Shown here one piece after another: positions 6,681 through 16,321 of a DNA stretch of 43,388 bases. Source of the DNA: a virus; the IMG/VR virus record IMGVR_UViG_3300048006_000273, positions 1 to 43,388 of that record. The stretch is one strand, 5' to 3'. Below the pieces are notes generated by a model. It was not told the origin of the DNA, ran no database searches, and saw nothing but the letters and a program-made list of their open reading frames with translations. The position numbers and the translations under genes are program-made. Every line of letters begins with the position of its first letter. Positions within the stretch are counted from its first letter, which is position 1.

Positions 6681-9137
6681 GTGGCCTATAGAGCTGAGAT
6701 TGAGATTGTTGCAAAGGGCGTAACGAAAGTTACGCAGTTGCAAAAAGGTCTCAATCAGCTTGCAAAGCAGATTGACCATTTAAACGGCCCAGGGTCTTTA
6801 AAAGACTTCAACAGTCAACTGGCACAAGCTAAAAAACTCTTAGACCGTGCTCAGCAGGGCACGGTTGAGGAGAAAAGAGCGGTTGATAAGTATGTAACTG
6901 CACTAAAAAATGCTAATACCGCACAGGTTCGTACCAACAAGCTTATTGCCGAAGAGATTAGGCAACGTGATGGTGCTACAGCTTCACTAAAACGTTATAA
7001 CGCTGCTGCTGCATCAGCTCGCCAGCCTGGTGGCAGCATGGCTGGTCGTTACATGAGACCAGGCGCCGGAGTCTCTACCGCGCAAGCATATTCCAGCCCT
7101 ATTGGTCCAGAACCTTCGTTTGTTTTTTCCGGGCAATCCACGGCAGTAGGCGGACGAATTAAAGCAATTAAGGCGGCCCAGGCCGCCATGGTCGCAGCAG
7201 AAACCGAGGTCAATCGTGTAACTCGTACGTTTGAGCAACAAGAAACGGCAAGAGAAAAGGCTAACGATAAGCTAATTTTTGACAGAAAGATGGCTCTGCT
7301 GGACGCAGAGCATCAGAAAACTTTAAAGCTAAATAAGAAGGAAAACGATGCTGCGCTGAAAAACTTTGATCAAAGGCTGAGCGCTCAGACTAAAAAAAGA
7401 GCAGCTCAAACAAAAGCGCAGGCAGGTAGGTCCAGAAAATTTACAGACATTGCAACAGGCGCTGGCTTCCCACTGTTATTTGGTGGCGGTCCAATCCAGG
7501 CATTGGCCGGGGGCCTTGGTGGAGCAGCAGGTGGACTAGGCGGGGCAATTGCTGCTAGCGCAATTACTGCACAGGTCGAAGCATTTGCGAAAGAAGCGGC
7601 AAAGGTTGGTCAAGCGTTGAACTCAACCAGTGGGGCTCTTGAGCTGGTACGTGAAAAGTCGTTATTTAGCCGTGAACAGATAAAAGAGAGAGCATTCCAG
7701 CTTGAAGAGCAAGGCAGGGTCGAAGAACTAGCGGCGTTGTTGACTGGTGAACTGACCCAATTGATTGGCAACGAAGGCGTTCGTTCTTTGCAGAAGTTGG
7801 GTGAAACTACAAGCGAAACAACAAAGCTTTGGAATCAGCTAACGACGCAATTATTTGCGTTGGTTTCAGGGCCTTTGGACATGTTCTTGAAGGCCGTAAA
7901 TGATTTATTGGGGCGGTTAACGCAGGGCGGAAAATTCAGTGCATTCTTGGGGGACCTTGATCCTGAACAGCGTTCTGCCGCTGAGGCAAGGGTTAAGGAG
8001 CTGCAGGGCAGGGTTGGGACTGGGAGAAGTGCAGCGCAAGGCGAAAGAATGACACTTCAGGCGGCTCAAGCGCAAGTTTTAGAAGAGATGGGAGGCTTGC
8101 GGCCAGCAGGCCCTTCCATCCCTGTCACAAAACAAGACCAAAGAAATTTTTCGGTCAAGGGCGGGCGTACTGAAAAAGATCGTCTTCCAAGCTTGAACAT
8201 TGAGCTTGGTCTAAAAGAAAAACTGCTCGTTCTTAATAAGCAAATTGCACAAGCAGTGCTTGATGAAGACAAGGTAACTCAGACTCTTCTTGAGAAAGAC
8301 AAAGTTAGAGAAATTTCTGCTGCCAAGATAGACAAAATCAGGGCAAAAGGGCTCGCTTCGGAGGTGGAGGCCAAAGAAATTGCTATTGAAAGAGTTAACC
8401 AATCTCAACAAATTCAAGACATCGACAGCAAGGCAGCGCAAGTTAAAGCCCAAGAAGCGAAAAAAGTAGAAGAGCTTGTTGGAAACCTAGAGAGTGAAGG
8501 AGCTTTGATAAAGGCCAAGTTGAATGGCAGGGAAGATGAAGTTAAGTTGACGCAAGAGATTGCTGAAAAAACCGAAGGGTTGGGAGAAACAGACGCAAAA
8601 AGAGTTGCAGATTTAATTAGAGGCAATGCCGAGCTAGAGAAGCAAGCTGCTATTGCAGACAGGATGCAACAGATATACGACCAAATAGGCCAAAGCATTG
8701 CTAGCGGTGTTGTTGATACCCTCAGTGCTGCAGTAGACCAAACTAAATCTCTTGCAGACGCTGCTGCAAACACGCTTCGTAACGTTGCAAGCATCCTTTT
8801 GCAACTTGGTGTCAATACTGCTCTCAAGAGTACCGGGTCTAGCCTGTTTAGCGGTCTTACAGGATTTGCAGATGGAGGCCGCCCGCCAGTTGGCAAGCCT
8901 TCAATCGTGGGAGAACGTGGCCCTGAGCTATTCGTTCCAAACACTTCCGGCACAATCGTTCCAAACAACAAGCTTGGGGGCGGTGGCGCGACAAACGTTG
9001 TCGTTAACGTTGATGCCAAAGGCAGTTCTGCCTCAGGTGACAGTGGTGCCGGTAAACAGCTCGGAGGGTTGATTGGAGCGGCTGTGCAGGCAGAATTGAT
9101 CAAGCAACAACGGCCTGGAGGCTTATTGTCTAGCTAA
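6681..9137 (+). CDS. Tape measure protein
   Basis: An 818 aa protein that sets tail length and is ejected with DNA. By the common rule of about 0.15 nm per residue the tail would be near 120 nm. It starts at GTG 6681. The first 240 residues are Lys/Ala/Gln-rich coiled coil. A Gly-rich hydrophobic stretch (about 255-295) looks membrane-active, and long helices follow to about 690. The C-terminus has the recurrent tape measure phrase SIVGERGPELFVP and a Gly/Ser tail. It follows the G/GT chaperones and precedes gpM, the fixed siphovirus order. No lytic transglycosylase or peptidase motif was seen in it. Confidence 0.9.
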   Translation: MAYRAEIEIVAKGVTKVTQLQKGLNQLAKQIDHLNGPGSLKDFNSQLAQAKKLLDRAQQGTVEEKRAVDKYVTALKNANTAQVRTNKLIAEEIRQRDGATASLKRYNAAAASARQPGGSMAGRYMRPGAGVSTAQAYSSPIGPEPSFVFSGQSTAVGGRIKAIKAAQAAMVAAETEVNRVTRTFEQQETAREKANDKLIFDRKMALLDAEHQKTLKLNKKENDAALKNFDQRLSAQTKKRAAQTKAQAGRSRKFTDIATGAGFPLLFGGGPIQALAGGLGGAAGGLGGAIAASAITAQVEAFAKEAAKVGQALNSTSGALELVREKSLFSREQIKERAFQLEEQGRVEELAALLTGELTQLIGNEGVRSLQKLGETTSETTKLWNQLTTQLFALVSGPLDMFLKAVNDLLGRLTQGGKFSAFLGDLDPEQRSAAEARVKELQGRVGTGRSAAQGERMTLQAAQAQVLEEMGGLRPAGPSIPVTKQDQRNFSVKGGRTEKDRLPSLNIELGLKEKLLVLNKQIAQAVLDEDKVTQTLLEKDKVREISAAKIDKIRAKGLASEVEAKEIAIERVNQSQQIQDIDSKAAQVKAQEAKKVEELVGNLESEGALIKAKLNGREDEVKLTQEIAEKTEGLGETDAKRVADLIRGNAELEKQAAIADRMQQIYDQIGQSIASGVVDTLSAAVDQTKSLADAAANTLRNVASILLQLGVNTALKSTGSSLFSGLTGFADGGRPPVGKPSIVGERGPELFVPNTSGTIVPNNKLGGGGATNVVVNVDAKGSSASGDSGAGKQLGGLIGAAVQAELIKQQRPGGLLSS

Positions 9138-9475
9138 TGAGTACCTTTCCCGATTTTGATCCCGCACCAGGGATGACAAAGCAGAGCGCACCAAATGTGC
9201 GTTCAATTCAGTTTGGGAGTGGTTATAGCCAGCGAGCAACGTTTGGCATTAACCAAAATCCCAAGATTTATAACCTGACGTTTCGCATATCTGAGACGGA
9301 AGCCGACATCATCGAAGCATTTTTAGATGCGCGTGGTGGTGTCGAAAGTTTTAGCTACACACCACCAGGCGAGGCAGCCAGCAGTAAATTTGTCTGCCAG
9401 CAATGGACAAAGACAATTTCCTTCGTTGATCGAGCTGAAGTTATCGCTACCTTTGTCCAGGTATTTGAAACCTAA
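9137..9475 (+). CDS. Minor tail protein, lambda gpM family
   Basis: A 112 aa tail-tip component. The N-terminal phrase QFGSGYSQRATFGIN and the end with FSYTPPGEAASSKFVCQQW and ATFVQVFE match the lambda gpM / phage minor tail family: distal tail strand, conserved aromatic core, and a length close to the usual 105-115. It begins inside the tape measure stop (TAATG) and ends the same way with the next gene, so the tail-tip genes are translationally coupled. Confidence 0.85.
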   Translation: MSTFPDFDPAPGMTKQSAPNVRSIQFGSGYSQRATFGINQNPKIYNLTFRISETEADIIEAFLDARGGVESFSYTPPGEAASSKFVCQQWTKTISFVDRAEVIATFVQVFET

Positions 9476-10500
9476 TGGCTTATCGGTACGACCTGCATAA
9501 ATGGGAAGCTGCAAAGGCTTACGCGTTTGGCGACGTTGTCCGTGCCAATCCCAACAGAGGTAACACGCTTGCGTTTAAGTGCATTGTTGCTGGGACGACA
9601 GACACCCTTGATACTTACTCGGAGTTTGAGTACGACGAGCCTGCTTTTCCGTTCAAAATTACGCAGACGTTAGTTGATGGAACGTGTACTTGGGAAGCGT
9701 TTGAGCCATTAGCCGAAGAGCTACTTCGCCTTGCCCCAACAGCAGTTATTGATCTTTATGAGATTGTTTTAACGACAGCAGTAAACGGTACTGACGCCAT
9801 AATAAGGTATCACCCCGGAAAGAATGGATTAACTGAAGAGATTAAATTTGACGGCAACTCTTATCCCGCAGTGCCTGTCGAAGTTGATGGGTTTGAGTTT
9901 GCTTCAAACGGAACATTACCTCGCCCTAGGTTAAAAGTAGCCAACGTCAACAATGCTATTACGGCGTTAATACTTTTGTATAATCCTTTAGCGGCTAAGG
10001 TCCAAAGGATTCGCACATTTGCCAAATTTATTGATACAGTAAATTATAATCAGCAAGTTCCGTTTGCTCCAGAAGAAGATATTGAAGATTTTTTGGTGAC
10101 AGAAAACAATGATCCTTTGATCGCGCAAACTTTTAACGATACTTCCGACCCTAATGCAAAGATGGTCGAAACTTGGTACATCGATCGTGTGTCAGCTGAA
10201 AGCCCGCAATTTGTTGAGTTTGAGCTAGCACCAAAGATTGACCTTGTTAATGTTGGGCTACCCCGGCGAACAATCGAAGAATTTTGCCCGTGGAAGTACC
10301 GAGGCGCTGAATGTGGGTACAAAGGAAGATCTTGCTTCACTGTTAACGATTCGGTTCTTCCAGATTCAGAAAAGGTGATAGTAAACGGTGTTGTTACTAA
10401 CGATATTTGTGGCAAACGCGTGTCTAGTTGTCAGGCAAGATTTGGCAGGGCAGACACTCTTCCTTTCGGTGGGTTCTATGGGGCAAGACTTCAGGCTTAA
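9475..10500 (+). CDS. Minor tail protein, lambda gpL family, with extra N-terminal module
   Basis: Tail-tip hub protein. The C-terminal part has Cys271, Cys280, Cys287, Cys312 and Cys319 in the arrangement EEFCPWKYRGAECGYKG...C...C, matching the iron-sulfur-binding C-terminal domain of lambda gpL. The body from about 80 (LLRLAPTAVIDLYEI, GNSYPAVPVEVDGFEF) is the usual gpL. At 341 aa it is about 100 longer than lambda gpL (232). The extra N-terminal 75 residues (HKWEAAKAYAFGDVVRAN, then LAFKCIVAG and GTCTWEAF) look like a small aromatic carbohydrate-binding-type module. That comparison is by pattern only. Confidence 0.85.
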   Translation: MAYRYDLHKWEAAKAYAFGDVVRANPNRGNTLAFKCIVAGTTDTLDTYSEFEYDEPAFPFKITQTLVDGTCTWEAFEPLAEELLRLAPTAVIDLYEIVLTTAVNGTDAIIRYHPGKNGLTEEIKFDGNSYPAVPVEVDGFEFASNGTLPRPRLKVANVNNAITALILLYNPLAAKVQRIRTFAKFIDTVNYNQQVPFAPEEDIEDFLVTENNDPLIAQTFNDTSDPNAKMVETWYIDRVSAESPQFVEFELAPKIDLVNVGLPRRTIEEFCPWKYRGAECGYKGRSCFTVNDSVLPDSEKVIVNGVVTNDICGKRVSSCQARFGRADTLPFGGFYGARLQA

Positions 10501-10792
10501 CGCGGTGAAGCACGCTAAGACTGCTTACCCAAACGAAGCTTGTGGTTTAGTTGTCAATGGACGTTATTTCCCTTGTCGAAACATTGCGCTAGACCCCAGT
10601 ACAGATTTTGCAATCAATCCTGCTGACTATGCCCGTGCAATGTTTGCTGGAACGATTGAAGCCGTAGTGCATTCACATCCAGCAGGCACACCTGTAAGCG
10701 AGCAAGATCGAAAAGCCTGCACCCAAACCAAGATTCCTTGGTACGTTTACTCTGTGCCAGATGATCAATGGTTAACTATCGAGCCTTGCTAG
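10478..10792 (+). CDS. Tail assembly JAMM (Mov34/MPN) metallopeptidase, K N-terminal half
   Basis: A 104 aa zinc metallopeptidase domain as in the N-terminal half of lambda gpK. The catalytic set is complete: Glu20 in PNEACGLV, His65 and His67 in VVHSHP, Ser74 and Asp77. The frame could open at 10388, but ATG 10478 gives the standard MGQDFRLNAVKHA start and overlaps gene L by 23 nt. It ends 25 nt inside the following NlpC/P60 gene. In lambda both domains form one protein. Here they are separate overlapping genes. Confidence 0.85.
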   Translation: MGQDFRLNAVKHAKTAYPNEACGLVVNGRYFPCRNIALDPSTDFAINPADYARAMFAGTIEAVVHSHPAGTPVSEQDRKACTQTKIPWYVYSVPDDQWLTIEPC

Positions 10793-11157
10793 GCCGTCAA
10801 TGGGATTACGGCAAGACTGATTGCTACTCGTTGCTTCGCGAATATTACGGGCTGCTTGGAATTGATCTACCAGATTTCCCGCGCCCTGAATCGCTGGAGC
10901 GTACCCACAGCATTTTTTTAAAGTATGCACGGGCCATTGGTTTTGAGCCGGTGCCTTTTGATGAGCGGCGTGAGCATGATGTTTTGATCATGCGACTTGG
11001 CACTAGAAATCCAATGCACGCAGCGATTTATGTGGGAGACGATAAAATTTTGCACCAGCGAATGAATAGCATCAGTGCTTTAGAGCCTTTAGGGCGTTAC
11101 TATAGGCAAAGCGTTGCGGCAGTTTTTCGCCATGCAGCTAGTTCTGTTGGCGGGTGA
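10768..11157 (+). CDS. Tail NlpC/P60 cysteine peptidase, K C-terminal half
   Basis: A 129 aa NlpC/P60 domain that cleaves peptidoglycan stem peptides, either during tail assembly or entry. The nucleophile is Cys19 in GKTDCYSLLREYY, and the catalytic His84 lies in NPMHAAIYVG. Size and spacing fit the family. It overlaps the JAMM gene by 25 nt and gene I by 26 nt. No signal peptide is present, consistent with a structural, tail-carried enzyme. Confidence 0.9.
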   Translation: MVNYRALLGRQWDYGKTDCYSLLREYYGLLGIDLPDFPRPESLERTHSIFLKYARAIGFEPVPFDERREHDVLIMRLGTRNPMHAAIYVGDDKILHQRMNSISALEPLGRYYRQSVAAVFRHAASSVGG

Positions 11158-12448
11158 GCTAGGCGAGAAGTATGGCCAGCAGCACGAGTATTACAACCTT
11201 CAAACGCCTGCTGATGCAATCAAGCTTCTCTGCATCAACTATCCAACGTTAAAGAATGAATTAGTTCAAGCGCACCAAAACGGCGTTGGATACAAGGTGA
11301 TTCAGGGTGGTGCGGCAATGGGGTATGACGAGTTGCAATTACCGTTTGGCAGCAAGCCATTGCTGGTAGTGCCTGTCATTTCAGGTTCTGGTGGCCAAGG
11401 TACAGGACAAATTTTGCTTGGCGTTGGCTTGGTTGCGGCTTCGTTCTTGCTGCCGGGTGCTGGAATATTTGGAACATCTGCACTTGGTAGCGGTCTTTTA
11501 GCAGCGGGTTCTACTGCTGCAGTTCCGTTTGTTGGTGCTGTTGGTGTTGCTGGTGGGGTCTTTGGCACGGCACTTGGTACGGCATTAAGTGCAGTCGGCG
11601 CAAGTATGATTCTTTCTGGGACGGCAAATCTTATTTCGCCACAACCGCAGCTTCCCAATTCTGGCAGGGGAAGAATTAAAGGTGAGGGCACTCGCGTAAG
11701 AGGCGAAGGGCCAAGTGGGATTACCAGAGGTGCTTCAGGTATTCAGTCTTATGCGTTTACCGGGCCCGCAAACACAACCGGAACAGGTGCAACATTGCCT
11801 GTCGTCTATGGCCGAGTAATCACTGGGAGTCATTTATTGGCAGCTAATTTAGAAGTTTCTGATACGTCTGACCCGTTGTTAATGGCCACGCAAACACCAG
11901 GGTTGCACACTGTAACGATCAACGGAGAAAGACTTACAAGAAGGTTTGAGTCATTGGGCGGCTTAGATAGCAAACTAGGTGTAAGGGACGTACAGAGTAG
12001 TAATGAAAATAAAAGAATAAGAGTTGAAGAAACTTTTGGCGATTTTAGTAGTGATGAATTATTGCAACCTGGAGAAATCATCTCAGCAAACGGTCTTGAC
12101 TACAAAAAAAGTAGAAGTAAAAGAAAAAAGGTTGATGTACTTTTTGAAGTTATCCGAGGCTTGTACGATAATGCTGGAGCGCCAGGCACAACAAAAATTG
12201 ATGGTTTCATTACTTACGAAATGACATTGACTGTCTCTGTAAGTGGGGAGGATATTCAAGTGGCGGTTGCTCGCAGCACATTACAAGGATTGGTCAACGA
12301 AACACAAGAATTTAGCTTTGGCCACAGGCTTGAAATTCCTAAAATTAAGGATGGGAGACGAGTTAAACTTGACGTTGAAATTATTGACGTTGGGGCCAGT
12401 GATAGAACAAAGCTCAAAGTTCAAGGCTACGGCTACAACCTGATTTAA
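11132..12448 (+). CDS. Tail assembly protein I, extended
   Basis: A 438 aa lambda gpI-like protein. The N-terminal ubiquitin-like region (VLLAGELGEKYG, DAIKLLCINYPTLKNEL) is followed by a Gly/Ala hydrophobic segment (about 90-160) and the phrase LPVVYGRVITGSHLL typical of gpI ends. Lambda gpI has 223 aa. The extra 190 or so C-terminal residues are strand-rich, with charged loops (KKSRSKRKKVDV) and no recognised domain. ATG 11132 is preferred over 11114, as it gives the standard MQLVLLAGELG start. It lies between K and J as in lambda. Confidence 0.8.
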   Translation: MQLVLLAGELGEKYGQQHEYYNLQTPADAIKLLCINYPTLKNELVQAHQNGVGYKVIQGGAAMGYDELQLPFGSKPLLVVPVISGSGGQGTGQILLGVGLVAASFLLPGAGIFGTSALGSGLLAAGSTAAVPFVGAVGVAGGVFGTALGTALSAVGASMILSGTANLISPQPQLPNSGRGRIKGEGTRVRGEGPSGITRGASGIQSYAFTGPANTTGTGATLPVVYGRVITGSHLLAANLEVSDTSDPLLMATQTPGLHTVTINGERLTRRFESLGGLDSKLGVRDVQSSNENKRIRVEETFGDFSSDELLQPGEIISANGLDYKKSRSKRKKVDVLFEVIRGLYDNAGAPGTTKIDGFITYEMTLTVSVSGEDIQVAVARSTLQGLVNETQEFSFGHRLEIPKIKDGRRVKLDVEIIDVGASDRTKLKVQGYGYNLI

Positions 12449-12454
12449 AAAACT

Positions 12455-15400
12455 ATGGCTCTCAATTCAAAGACCAACCTTAAAATAATTGACGCAATTT
12501 GTGAGGGTCCAATTGAAGGGCTTGCTGAGCACAAGAAAAGCGTTTTGTTGAATGAAACTTTGATTACGGGAAGACAATTTGTAGACCAAACGGTTGTATT
12601 TACAGAAAGAAGAGGAACTCAGAATCAAAAACGTTTTGACGAAAGCTCTATGTTGAGCGATGTTCAGACAACAATTATTGATGTTAACGAGCAGCTTGGC
12701 AGTAATTATTCTGAAGAGCTTAACGCCGAGAATCAGGTCGTAAAACGCGATTATGGTACGGGGCAAATAACCCGTGCAATAAACGACAGCGAGGCTGATT
12801 TTGTTGTGCTTGTGTTTACAATTCCAAAGCTGTACTGCACTGCTATGGAGGGGTTGGCGCGGGGTCAATTGTTCTTTGCTCAGATTCATCTAGATATTGC
12901 GCTCAGTGAAGACGGCGGTGCCTTTGAAGACAAATGGTTCAGGGTTGAAGGGCAAGAGCAGAGAAATATTATCAAAGGTGTTTCTACGTCCCAGTATCAA
13001 TTTAAAACTAAACCATTTAATCTTTCACGGAACAAAGCTCCATACAAGATTCGCGTTAGAAAAGTAGAATTTGACAATGCAGAAGACGCTTTTGAGATCA
13101 AGTACACCGATTTTCAGGATTTACCTGGAACGACATCGCTAGCTAACAACAGAGCAGATACTATTATTTGGAACAGTATTATTGTCGGCAAAAGAGTAAA
13201 AGTCAGTTATCCTCATACTGCTCTTGTTCATTTAAGTATTGATTCGGAAGAGTACAACACCTTGCCTGCGAGGGCGTATGACATCAAAGGCTTAAAAGTA
13301 CAAATTCCATCAAATGCAACTGTCAGGAGAGACGGCAGCCTTAGATTTAATAATAGTATTCCTTTTGATGGTAGTCTTACCACCAACTTACATTGGACTA
13401 CCTGCCCAATTTGTTGTTTCTATGACTTGCTTACAAATAATCGCTATGGGGCAGGCGATTTTGTAGACAAGGCCAAAATTAACTGGGTTGATTTAATTGA
13501 CCTTGCAAAATATTGCAACGAAGAAATTGATACGCCTGAAGGAAGACAGCCAAGATTTGCGATTAACACAGTGCTTGGTTCGCAGGCTGAGGCGTATAAC
13601 GTTTTGCAAGACATGGCAAGCGTTTTCCGTGGAATGATTTTTTGGAAGGCGGACAATGTTCAAATTGCTGCTGACCACGGAAATCTTGGCGAAGAAAATG
13701 CAGAGCCATTAGCGGCTATCCATGTTTTTAGTAATTCTAATGTTGTCAACGGAAGTTTCTCCTACAGCGGCTCTTCGTTAAAAACCAGAAGCACTAGAGT
13801 ACGCGTAAGATATAACGATCCTGACAACTTCTATAAACCCAATTTTCTAATTATTGAAGATCAGGCTGCGATTGAAAAGTATGGGGTACAAGAAAAAAGT
13901 GTTGTGGCTTTTGGTTGCACTTCAAAGTATCAAGCGCAACGCATGGCGCGTTGGGTTTTGTATTCAGAAACAGTGCATGACGACACAGTTAACTTTTCAG
14001 TTGGGCTTGAAGGATTAAACGTATTGCCAGGCCAGATATTTGAAGTGTCTGATGAAATGCGCCTATCAACTCGGTTGGCTGGCCGCATTGTTGGTGCGCG
14101 AAGAGAGTTTGTGGACTTAGACCAACCTCCAGTAATGCCATCTGGAGCAAATGACAAGATAAGCGTTGTCATGAAGGATGGGACGATTGAAACTCGTTCA
14201 ATTTTTAGCGATCAAATCAGCGGCAATAGGGTCACGCTTGTCTCTCCTTTTACTCAAGTGCCGCCTGATGATGCTCTGTATTCGATTACAAATGATTCAG
14301 CAGTCATCAGAAAGTATCGGTGTCTATCAGTAGCGGAAGGAGAAGGTGGTGTCTATTCCGTTATTGGCGTTCGTCACGTTGACGGCATTTACAAATTCGT
14401 TGAAGGCGATAGCGCAACTTTAGACCTGCCCAAGCCATTTATTTACGGTCGGCAACCCGATCCAGCAAGCAATGTAAGCATTACATTTCAGCAAATTGAC
14501 ACTGGCAGTAGTACAACAAACCGTGCCACTATTTCATGGACCAGGGGTCTTACCGGACCAGTCGCAGATTTTGAAGTTAGATGGAGAGTGGGGGACGCAG
14601 GTAACTGGAATAGTATATTTACCGCCAACACCTCTGTAAATATAGATTCAAACATACTTCCTGGCGAAATATTATATGCAGAAGTTACAGCAAGAGGCCC
14701 TCAGCCAGACAGAAAAAGATCTGATATTGGCAGACAGCAGCGAGAAATTGCTGTTGGTGGAACGAGTGACGGGTCTGATGGCATCTCAAGAATTGTTCTT
14801 CCGCCTGACCCAGAAGACGTAACCATTGAAGCTTTTGGCGTTGATCAAGTTATCTTGCGATGGTCGCCAACGGCTAGCGGCCAAAATGTTGAAAACTTTG
14901 TTGCTGTAATTAGGCATACAGGATTGCTTACAGGGCAGGGCTCATGGCCCAACAGCACTCTGCTGAGAAAAGTTGAGGCAAGAACAACTTCGTGTGTATT
15001 GCCATTGTTGAATGGAGAATATCTAATTAAATTTGAAAACGCAGAGAAGCAGCGCAGTTTTAGTGCAGCTAGCGCGTTAATTAACATCCCTGACGGGATT
15101 CCGAGATTTAACTATGAGGTGGTGCGGGAAGACGCATCCCCTGCACCATTCTCAGGAGAAAAATTCAACGTTAACTACAGCGAACAATATGACGGCTTAG
15201 TCCTAGGGGGAGATGCTTCTTTTGACAGCATTGTGGACCTAGATGCGTTTACAGCAAATATTGACACACATTTTGGTACTCAATTCACTAAAGGTACTTA
15301 TTTCTTTCACGAAATTATTGATCTTGGCGCAAAGTTCAGTGTGCGGATGCAACGTATCCTGACAGCCCGTGGCCTTTACACAAGTGACCTTATTGATGAT

Positions 15401-16321
15401 CGTTCTGCTTTAATTGACACATGGTCTGACTTTGATGGTGAAATCCCTGACGATACAAACGTTGAGGTTTATTTTAGAAAGTCAGACAATACCGCTACGG
15501 ATTCAGACATTGTTTTTGAAGATGGATCGAAGATTCAGTTTGAGGGCGATACTGTTACTTTGGCAGTAACAGTTGTCAGCTCTGGTGGGAGCAACAAGTA
15601 TCGAATTAATGGCTCTAGTACCGACAATGAAACGTTAATTTTGACAGAGGGTAATACCTACATCTTTGATCAATCAGACGCAAGCAACTCTGGCCATCCC
15701 GTAAGAATTAGCGCGACAAGCGATGGAACGCATGGCGGTGGCTCTGCATACACAGTAGGAGTGACAACGGTTGGAACGCCAGGAACTGCAGGCGCTTACA
15801 CGCAGATTGCTCTGGCAGCTGGCGCTCCAATCCTTTACTACTACTGCTCAGACCATTCCGGGATGGGAGGTCAGTTGACTACAAATCCTGGCAGCTACTC
15901 AGACTTGCAGCAAAATTCAGATCTTGTGTTTGAGGATTGGATCCCTCTTGAAAACAACGTGTATGTTGGCCGTTCATTCCAGTTCAAGGCTGAGCTAACA
16001 GCAGATCACGTTGACCAGACACCGCTTGTAGACGAGCTTGGGGTAAGGCTGCAGATGGAACGGCGTACTGAAAACAGCGGGACAATTACGTCTGGCTCGC
16101 AGCCATCTGGCGCAACTGTTGTCTTCGACAATGCGTTTTACTCCGACAACGATACGAAGGTAACTGTCGGAATTACAGCGTTTGACTTTGATGCTGGTGA
16201 CTACTACGTGATGTCAGAGCCAGCCTCAACAGGATTTACGATTCTGTTTAAAAATGGCGGCTCTGTGATTAGTAGGAGATTTCAGTACACTGCAATAGGA
16301 TACGGAACGCAACAGGTCTAA
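12455..16321 (+). CDS. Central tail tip / host specificity protein J
   Basis: A 1288 aa gpJ-type hub. The N-terminus begins with KTNLKIIDAICEGPIEGL, the classic opening of gpJ. The tail-hub region runs to about 680, followed by two FN3-like domains (about 675-775 and 785-880, with RATISWTRG and QVILRWSP). The C-terminal part carries strand repeats of the type DIVFEDGS. Between about 1060 and 1140 lies an inserted cupredoxin-like domain with His1081, Cys1131, His1134 and Met1137 in YYYCSDHSGMGG. It starts 6 nt after gene I. It probably contacts the host receptor. The far C-terminus, the usual receptor-binding part, is unlike lambda J. Confidence 0.9.
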   Translation: MALNSKTNLKIIDAICEGPIEGLAEHKKSVLLNETLITGRQFVDQTVVFTERRGTQNQKRFDESSMLSDVQTTIIDVNEQLGSNYSEELNAENQVVKRDYGTGQITRAINDSEADFVVLVFTIPKLYCTAMEGLARGQLFFAQIHLDIALSEDGGAFEDKWFRVEGQEQRNIIKGVSTSQYQFKTKPFNLSRNKAPYKIRVRKVEFDNAEDAFEIKYTDFQDLPGTTSLANNRADTIIWNSIIVGKRVKVSYPHTALVHLSIDSEEYNTLPARAYDIKGLKVQIPSNATVRRDGSLRFNNSIPFDGSLTTNLHWTTCPICCFYDLLTNNRYGAGDFVDKAKINWVDLIDLAKYCNEEIDTPEGRQPRFAINTVLGSQAEAYNVLQDMASVFRGMIFWKADNVQIAADHGNLGEENAEPLAAIHVFSNSNVVNGSFSYSGSSLKTRSTRVRVRYNDPDNFYKPNFLIIEDQAAIEKYGVQEKSVVAFGCTSKYQAQRMARWVLYSETVHDDTVNFSVGLEGLNVLPGQIFEVSDEMRLSTRLAGRIVGARREFVDLDQPPVMPSGANDKISVVMKDGTIETRSIFSDQISGNRVTLVSPFTQVPPDDALYSITNDSAVIRKYRCLSVAEGEGGVYSVIGVRHVDGIYKFVEGDSATLDLPKPFIYGRQPDPASNVSITFQQIDTGSSTTNRATISWTRGLTGPVADFEVRWRVGDAGNWNSIFTANTSVNIDSNILPGEILYAEVTARGPQPDRKRSDIGRQQREIAVGGTSDGSDGISRIVLPPDPEDVTIEAFGVDQVILRWSPTASGQNVENFVAVIRHTGLLTGQGSWPNSTLLRKVEARTTSCVLPLLNGEYLIKFENAEKQRSFSAASALINIPDGIPRFNYEVVREDASPAPFSGEKFNVNYSEQYDGLVLGGDASFDSIVDLDAFTANIDTHFGTQFTKGTYFFHEIIDLGAKFSVRMQRILTARGLYTSDLIDDRSALIDTWSDFDGEIPDDTNVEVYFRKSDNTATDSDIVFEDGSKIQFEGDTVTLAVTVVSSGGSNKYRINGSSTDNETLILTEGNTYIFDQSDASNSGHPVRISATSDGTHGGGSAYTVGVTTVGTPGTAGAYTQIALAAGAPILYYYCSDHSGMGGQLTTNPGSYSDLQQNSDLVFEDWIPLENNVYVGRSFQFKAELTADHVDQTPLVDELGVRLQMERRTENSGTITSGSQPSGATVVFDNAFYSDNDTKVTVGITAFDFDAGDYYVMSEPASTGFTILFKNGGSVISRRFQYTAIGYGTQQV

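Follow-up and report, generated by a model that had tools for sequence, protein, structure and literature searches.

The stretch of viral DNA analysed here (the window, 43,388 nt) encodes a tail-tip attachment protein J in which an earlier note, made from the letters alone, had seen a cupredoxin-like domain with the complete ligand set of type-1 copper proteins. This raises the question of whether a copper-protein domain is built into the host-contact end of a phage virion, and what such a domain might do there.

Cupredoxins, J proteins and the plastocyanin genes of cyanophages are already known; the use of a cupredoxin module within virion proteins may be new. A literature search on copper or cupredoxin domains in phage structural proteins found none by title or start of the abstract, and a description elsewhere is possible. 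The plastocyanin gene petE is treated as a metabolic gene of cyanophages (PMC3037559), and a viral NirK is described which is a separate matter from the J domain (PMC8115048). A parallel is the YHYH domain of jumbo phages and pelagimyophages, which is tail-associated and predicted to bind zinc (PMC7824862, PMC7029224). The YHYH and J domains are thus both tail-associated and predicted to bind metal; their ligands, however, differ, those of YHYH, a predicted hydrolase, being three His and one Asp (PMC7824862).

The tail-tip protein J and its inserted domain

The carrier protein matches Phage-tail_3 (PF13550, E 2.4e-23) in Pfam and the central tail fiber J family phrog_31 (E 1.2e-136) in PHROGs, and among PDB entries the F2-pyocin tail fibre (E 2e-63) and the lambda-type tip attachment protein J (E 3.3e-54). 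The open reading frames directly upstream match minor tail proteins (phrog_14, 18 and 30) and a tail assembly protein (phrog_32). With Phage-tail_3, the J core and the upstream tail-tip genes all present, the sequence matches identify the carrier as a J tail-tip protein of the lambda type. The likeness to lambda J covers residues 5–648 of the present protein and stops there, whereas the carrier region and its insert lie beyond that point (Table 1).

All four residues named in the earlier note—His1081, Cys1131, His1134 and Met1137—are found in the translation of 12455–16321, in which residue 1068 is the first of TYIFDQSD and residue 1128 the first of YYYCSDHSGMGG. In six-frame translation of the window, the C-x2-H-x2-M motif formed by the last three occurs nowhere else, and the domain itself was found once when the virus record was searched. 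The domain is somewhat longer than the place that had been assigned to it (about residues 1060–1140).

Table 1. Features of the tail-tip locus; positions refer to the window.
Feature	Position	Strand	Basis and remarks
Lambda-type tail-tip genes directly upstream of J	9137..12448	+	ORFs 9137-9475, 9475-10500, 10768-11157, 11114-12448
Tail-tip attachment protein J	12455..16321	+	1288 aa; carrier of the cupredoxin-fold domain; ORF, Pfam, PHROGs and PDB matches
J part upstream of the insertion, residues 880-1028	15092..15538	+	Empty-site alignment of J relatives; model of 880-1288
Cupredoxin-fold domain, J residues 1029-1144 (about 116 residues)	15539..15886	+	AlphaFold2 model, fold matches, family members
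His1081, predicted ligand 1	15695..15697	+	His-Pro motif right before a strand; aligns with conserved His of PF00127
Cys1131, predicted ligand 2	15845..15847	+	Strand end; translation, model, alignment, conservation
His1134, predicted ligand 3	15854..15856	+	Shared PF00127 column; absent in 14/14 domains without ligand 1
Met1137, predicted axial ligand	15863..15865	+	Shared PF00127 column; Met in 262/263 domains
J part downstream of the insertion to the C-terminus, residues 1145-1288	15887..16318	+	J-relative searches, empty-site alignment, model

Sequence alignment indicates that the domain was inserted into the C-terminal part of J. Among the J relatives found via the C-terminus (the best 80 of 228), 19 carry it; the 61 rows without it are an upper count, some being cut or partly matched (the sequence of L259 starts only a short way upstream of its match). 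Several of the 80 contigs also overlap or are nearly identical. The empty site is seen in alignment A4, which comprises the window and 42 of 49 thinned J rows (L015, L081, L082, L272, L273, L286 and L289 being omitted): the window reads KIQF-EGDTV...domain...LQQNSDLVFEDW, as opposed to KIEF-ETGAGSNI-RQESDLAFEEW in the close relative L256. A more distant J relative, that of Prochlorococcus phage MED4-117, is also without the domain.

The carrier region around the insert (J residues 887–1202, 15113–16060) resembles part of the Staphylococcus phage phi812 baseplate chain 9euj_G (Z 10.1, 121 residues aligned over range 8–323 of a model of J 880–1288), a match that suggests a baseplate kind of structure for this region of J.

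Predicted fold and relation to cupredoxins

The AlphaFold2 model of J 1029–1144, built from an alignment with 42 relatives, has a mean pLDDT of 96.1 and a pTM of 0.89. In domain numbering, His 53 is placed just ahead of strand 55–58, Cys 103 ends strand 99–103, and His 106 and Met 109 lie in a short loop before strand 110–115; this order of strands and ligands in the modelled domain is the cupredoxin layout, as in type-1 copper proteins. In the larger model of J 880–1288 (pLDDT 77.1, pTM 0.52), nearly the same strands are predicted, and the segments that join the domain to the rest of J on either side have low confidence.

Comparison of the domain model with the PDB gave cupredoxin-type copper proteins for all 50 matches listed by Foldseek, of which the best reaches an E of only 1.0e-3, and cupredoxin-type copper protein chains for all 50 listed by VIA-align. 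The closest fold is the N-terminal cupredoxin domain of the three-domain nitrite reductase of Hyphomicrobium (2dv6, 6tfo; best match 2dv6_A, Z 9.9, rmsd 2.5, 99 aligned, with 22% identity over the aligned part), which is again the top match of the larger model (Z 10.3); in contrast to the J domain, which is part of a virion protein, it belongs to an enzyme. Two-domain small laccases and rusticyanin share the fold as well (Z 8.5–9.2; small laccases about 9, rusticyanin 2cal 8.6), and the His-Pro seen at the first ligand also occurs at the type-1 His of multicopper oxidases. Unlike the laccases, J bears no Pfam sign of an oxidase, with no such match at E up to 1. The model thus assigns the domain to the cupredoxin fold superfamily, i.e., a Greek-key beta-sandwich of the cupredoxin type. 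The structure comparison proposed in the earlier note therefore agrees with its claim of a cupredoxin-like domain, with Z up to 9.9, and a fold that parts the four residues, which it had named as the outcome speaking against that claim, was not obtained: the strand order is that of cupredoxins, and across the family both His are lost together. Among predicted viral proteins (BFVD), 60 fold matches were found at E up to 0.001, several of them from cyanophages. The fold is also matched in BFVD by two small giant-virus "beta-sandwich proteins", A0A481YVH3 and A0A481Z6J5 (Marseillevirus LCMAC201 and Pithovirus LCPAC302).

At the level of sequence, no Pfam model reaches the window domain, and in PHROGs its matches carry the labels tail fibre, baseplate or unknown. 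The domain gives no row against PF00127 (Copper-bind) at E up to 10 and misses the cut-off of 21.2 bits; hence, we place it as a sister branch outside the curated family. That cut-off is exceeded by the cellular domains L154 (24.8 bits) and L162 (25.3 bits), both from Woeseiaceae, and by a more distant, bridging flavobacterial domain, L327 (27.4 bits). The latter lies outside A2, a set of 20 hand-picked rows, and is retrieved by the A2 profile (25.8 bits, E 1.7e-5), while L154 and L162 are themselves rows of A2, so that their own scores with this profile carry no meaning. PF00127 is matched by 4 of the 43 members of A1 (42 loci and the window, from 84 domain matches thinned at 93% similarity; best 1.1e-4) and by 7 of the 20 members of A2 (best 3.2e-5), while the plastocyanin model TIGR02656 is matched by 2 of 20 (best 1.9e-4). 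Via L154, L162 and L327, a sequence relation to the cupredoxin family is thus detectable.

The four residues fall into the same columns as the His/Cys/His/Met of five PF00127 proteins from the same genomes in three MAFFT modes. This test set held five of the seven proteins of A3 (L323 and L326, with longer ligand loops, were left out; A3 itself represents 7 of 12 PF00127 places found), L327 and five domains of the family. As the residues occupy the ligand columns of Pfam Copper-bind proteins, the full copper-ligand set that had been claimed is present. Plastocyanin and azurin (PF00127) accordingly share ligand order and columns with the J family, but differ in the residue after the first His—mostly Pro in the family, Asn in the seven PF00127 members compared—and in the stretch from this His to the Cys, which is longer in the J family. 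The C-x2-H-x2-M loop, the spacing of which is that of amicyanin, is shorter in the J family than the loops of the PF00127 members compared.

Profile-profile comparison with the seven PF00127 members was weak (probability 11% and 2%), and profiles A1 and A2 retrieved no cupredoxin from the PDB sequences, where their matches were weak ones to antibodies and unrelated proteins; homology therefore rests on the fold and the intermediates. Taken together, we consider it almost certain that the domain belongs to the cupredoxin family.

Conservation and loss of the ligand set

The full set of His, Cys, His and Met is present in 247 of 263 distinct domains (205/217 in an earlier set, before one further scan), a degree of conservation by which a chance motif was ruled out. 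Broken down by source, the window together with IMG/VR contributes 163 complete sets in 169 domains, deposited phage records 12 in 12, and genome contigs 71 in 81; the single domain from a genome search (1/1), the same place as L154, is complete too. Since the search patterns included the stretch with the Cys, conservation was rechecked in sets chosen independently of it. Full ligands were found in 17 of the 19 domain-bearing J relatives identified by their C-terminus and, by tblastn, in all 12 ligand-spanning domains of 11 chosen deposited phage records, a count that excludes a partial match in S-B68 (E 1.3). The least similar of these records is S-CAM4, with 36% identity; eleven of the 12 domains have C-x2-H-x2-M and one has C-x2-H-x3-M. 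Given the ligand set and the family, copper is probably bound in most family members.

Losses of the set follow a pattern. His at ligand 1 is kept in 249 of the 263 domains; both His are lost jointly in 14, the second alone once (L152) and the first alone never, and the lost first His is replaced by Phe or Tyr only where the second is also gone (14/14). Phe stands in its place, with both His lost, in the J proteins L063 and L257, in L143, L145–L147, L149 and L150 from Verrucomicrobia, and in the viral L422 and L398. When near-invariant columns were compared in 276 pairs, none proved more joint than the two His (0.91); the pair of the second His and Gly110 came next and close behind (0.83). On a quick tree built without the four ligand columns, parsimony gives four changes for each His, the second changing in parallel in 3.5 of 4 pairs and in the opposite sense in none, four pairs being too few for significance. 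Joint loss is what would be expected of one shared site. The roughly four independent losses of both His with retention of the domain, which persists without its site even in J itself (L063, L257), imply that copper is not indispensable to the domain in every carrier.

These site-less lineages, in which the domain stands without the site, would also fit a plain immunoglobulin-like spacer, with the four residues as metal-free relics of the fold. However, relics are not expected to be retained in 247 of 263 domains with joint loss of the two His, nor would they be expected to leave Met, Cys and both His within the 16 most conserved columns, and we consider this reading extremely improbable. A purely structural site occupied by zinc instead of copper has more to recommend it, considering that virion assembly takes place in the cytoplasm, where zinc is the more accessible metal, and that type-1 sites accept zinc. 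Nevertheless, two His together with Cys and Met make up the copper set and not the usual zinc set, and the axial position is held by Met in all domains except L156, where it is Gln, the axial ligand of stellacyanin; a zinc site is, thus, regarded as unlikely, and copper is retained as the preferred metal.

Distribution of the domain and its possible role

The domain is not confined to J. Further carriers are virion structural proteins (phrog_3287, phrog_16122), a minor tail protein (phrog_15525), a tail fibre (phrog_5616), T7-type tail fibres and proteins filed as head/packaging. The individual scans returned 491, 108, at least 590, 228 and 445 relatives, with the best 80 loci retained from each; the lower bound of 590 refers to relatives of the domain in IMG/VR. 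At E 1e-3, the domain is matched by 86 of 50,697 deposited phage records. By the first word of the name, these are 63 Synechococcus, 8 Prochlorococcus, 5 Cyanophage, 4 Methylophilales and 3 Pelagibacter records, and three single ones beginning with Marine, uncultured and phage, of which the one named phage is of seawater origin. No match at this threshold was found in 72,556 plasmids. The statement in the earlier note that similar domains occur in other marine phage structural proteins is supported by the matches in IMG/VR, in deposited phages, in BFVD and in varied virion carriers. In L342 (ACG-2014d), the domain is present in diverged form in two adjacent baseplate genes, one for the gp9-type connector and the other for a wedge subunit, and both copies retain the four ligands.

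Cellular copies are found as well. Genome contigs hold 108 relatives (best 80 retained), mostly from marine groups according to the record titles. Two genes in SAR11 assemblies (L099, L118), located in contigs of >50 kb, carry the domain behind a T7-type tail fibre N-terminus and are therefore read as phage genes; a cellular origin in SAR11 was rejected on this basis, and they may be prophages or captured phage sequence. Other copies look chromosomal, such as L117 of SAR86, beside fatty-acid-type metabolic genes, and the archaeal L123, near a nitroreductase. A lipoprotein-like start is seen in L105, L107, L117 and L123, among others; Pfam finds cadherin-like (Big_9) and Ig repeats in L107 and collagen repeats in L123 and L137, and the Flavobacteriaceae copies L091, L092 and L126 lie in frames of >3000 codons. 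These starts, repeats and very long frames suggest surface display as a theme common to phage and cell. Across the sequences collected, the domain is a mobile module that appears to have been shuffled among virion proteins unrelated to one another, mainly in marine phages, and among surface-type proteins of bacteria and archaea.

This distribution bears on metal delivery or mimicry, by which copper-loaded tails would dock on metal-uptake proteins of the host surface; the iron counterpart is reportedly the "Ferrojan horse" idea. A metal-type ligand set in a host-contact protein would suit it, as would the names of the deposited carriers (mainly Synechococcus, Prochlorococcus, SAR11 and Methylophilales phages). 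However, the module is also present in proteins filed under head/packaging or baseplate, and no copper-protein family was found among the nine neighbours scanned of two cellular copies (SAR86 L117 and archaeal L123), which leaves this explanation very doubtful.

Likewise, the site might be a true blue copper centre for electron transfer or redox sensing, with the Cu(I)/Cu(II) state at the cell surface controlling adsorption or ejection. The strongly conserved full type-1 set is in line with such a centre, and the closest folds are domains of redox copper proteins; yet no redox partner or pathway was seen, the structural proteins that carry the domain are very diverse, and the domain has outlived about four losses of the site. 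In our view, a redox centre is quite unlikely.

A role in display or adhesion is favoured because the carriers have exposure and attachment in common, visible redox chemistry is absent, and the domain outlives the loss of its site; taken by itself, this role has a little less than an even chance. As a whole, the explanation of a metal-locked cupredoxin module for display or adhesion in J is, in our view, slightly more likely than not. In this proposal, the inserted domain, with its complete predicted type-1 set, would be synthesised metal-free in the cytoplasm of the host and would probably be loaded with copper, or some other soft metal, once the cell has lysed; this timing is a guess based on the scarcity of free copper in the cytoplasm. 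The bound metal may then stiffen and protect the ligand loop at the host-contact end, so that the domain could act as a compact, metal-locked module. Copper as the metal, the time of loading, the rigidity and the part in host contact are what we infer here. The further-reaching idea that a large part of marine tailed-phage virions are copper metalloparticles—with the shuffled module at tail tip and baseplate apo in the cell and loaded from seawater after lysis, and with copper occupancy or redox state gating attachment, so that infectivity would depend on dissolved copper—seems rather improbable to us.

Should the domain bind copper, annotation would have overlooked a metalloprotein that is common in the tails of ocean phages, and phage adsorption or persistence would be tied to trace-metal chemistry. 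The domain would then be a small, expressible object for a direct test of the metal link, with the site-less domains of the related J proteins L063 and L257 as natural controls. For annotation, tail genes with the domain might be taken for metabolic genes of the plastocyanin type. In Prochlorococcus phage MED4-184 (L083; JF974286.1, 34025–38327), no gene is annotated across a long J-like frame near the end of the record.
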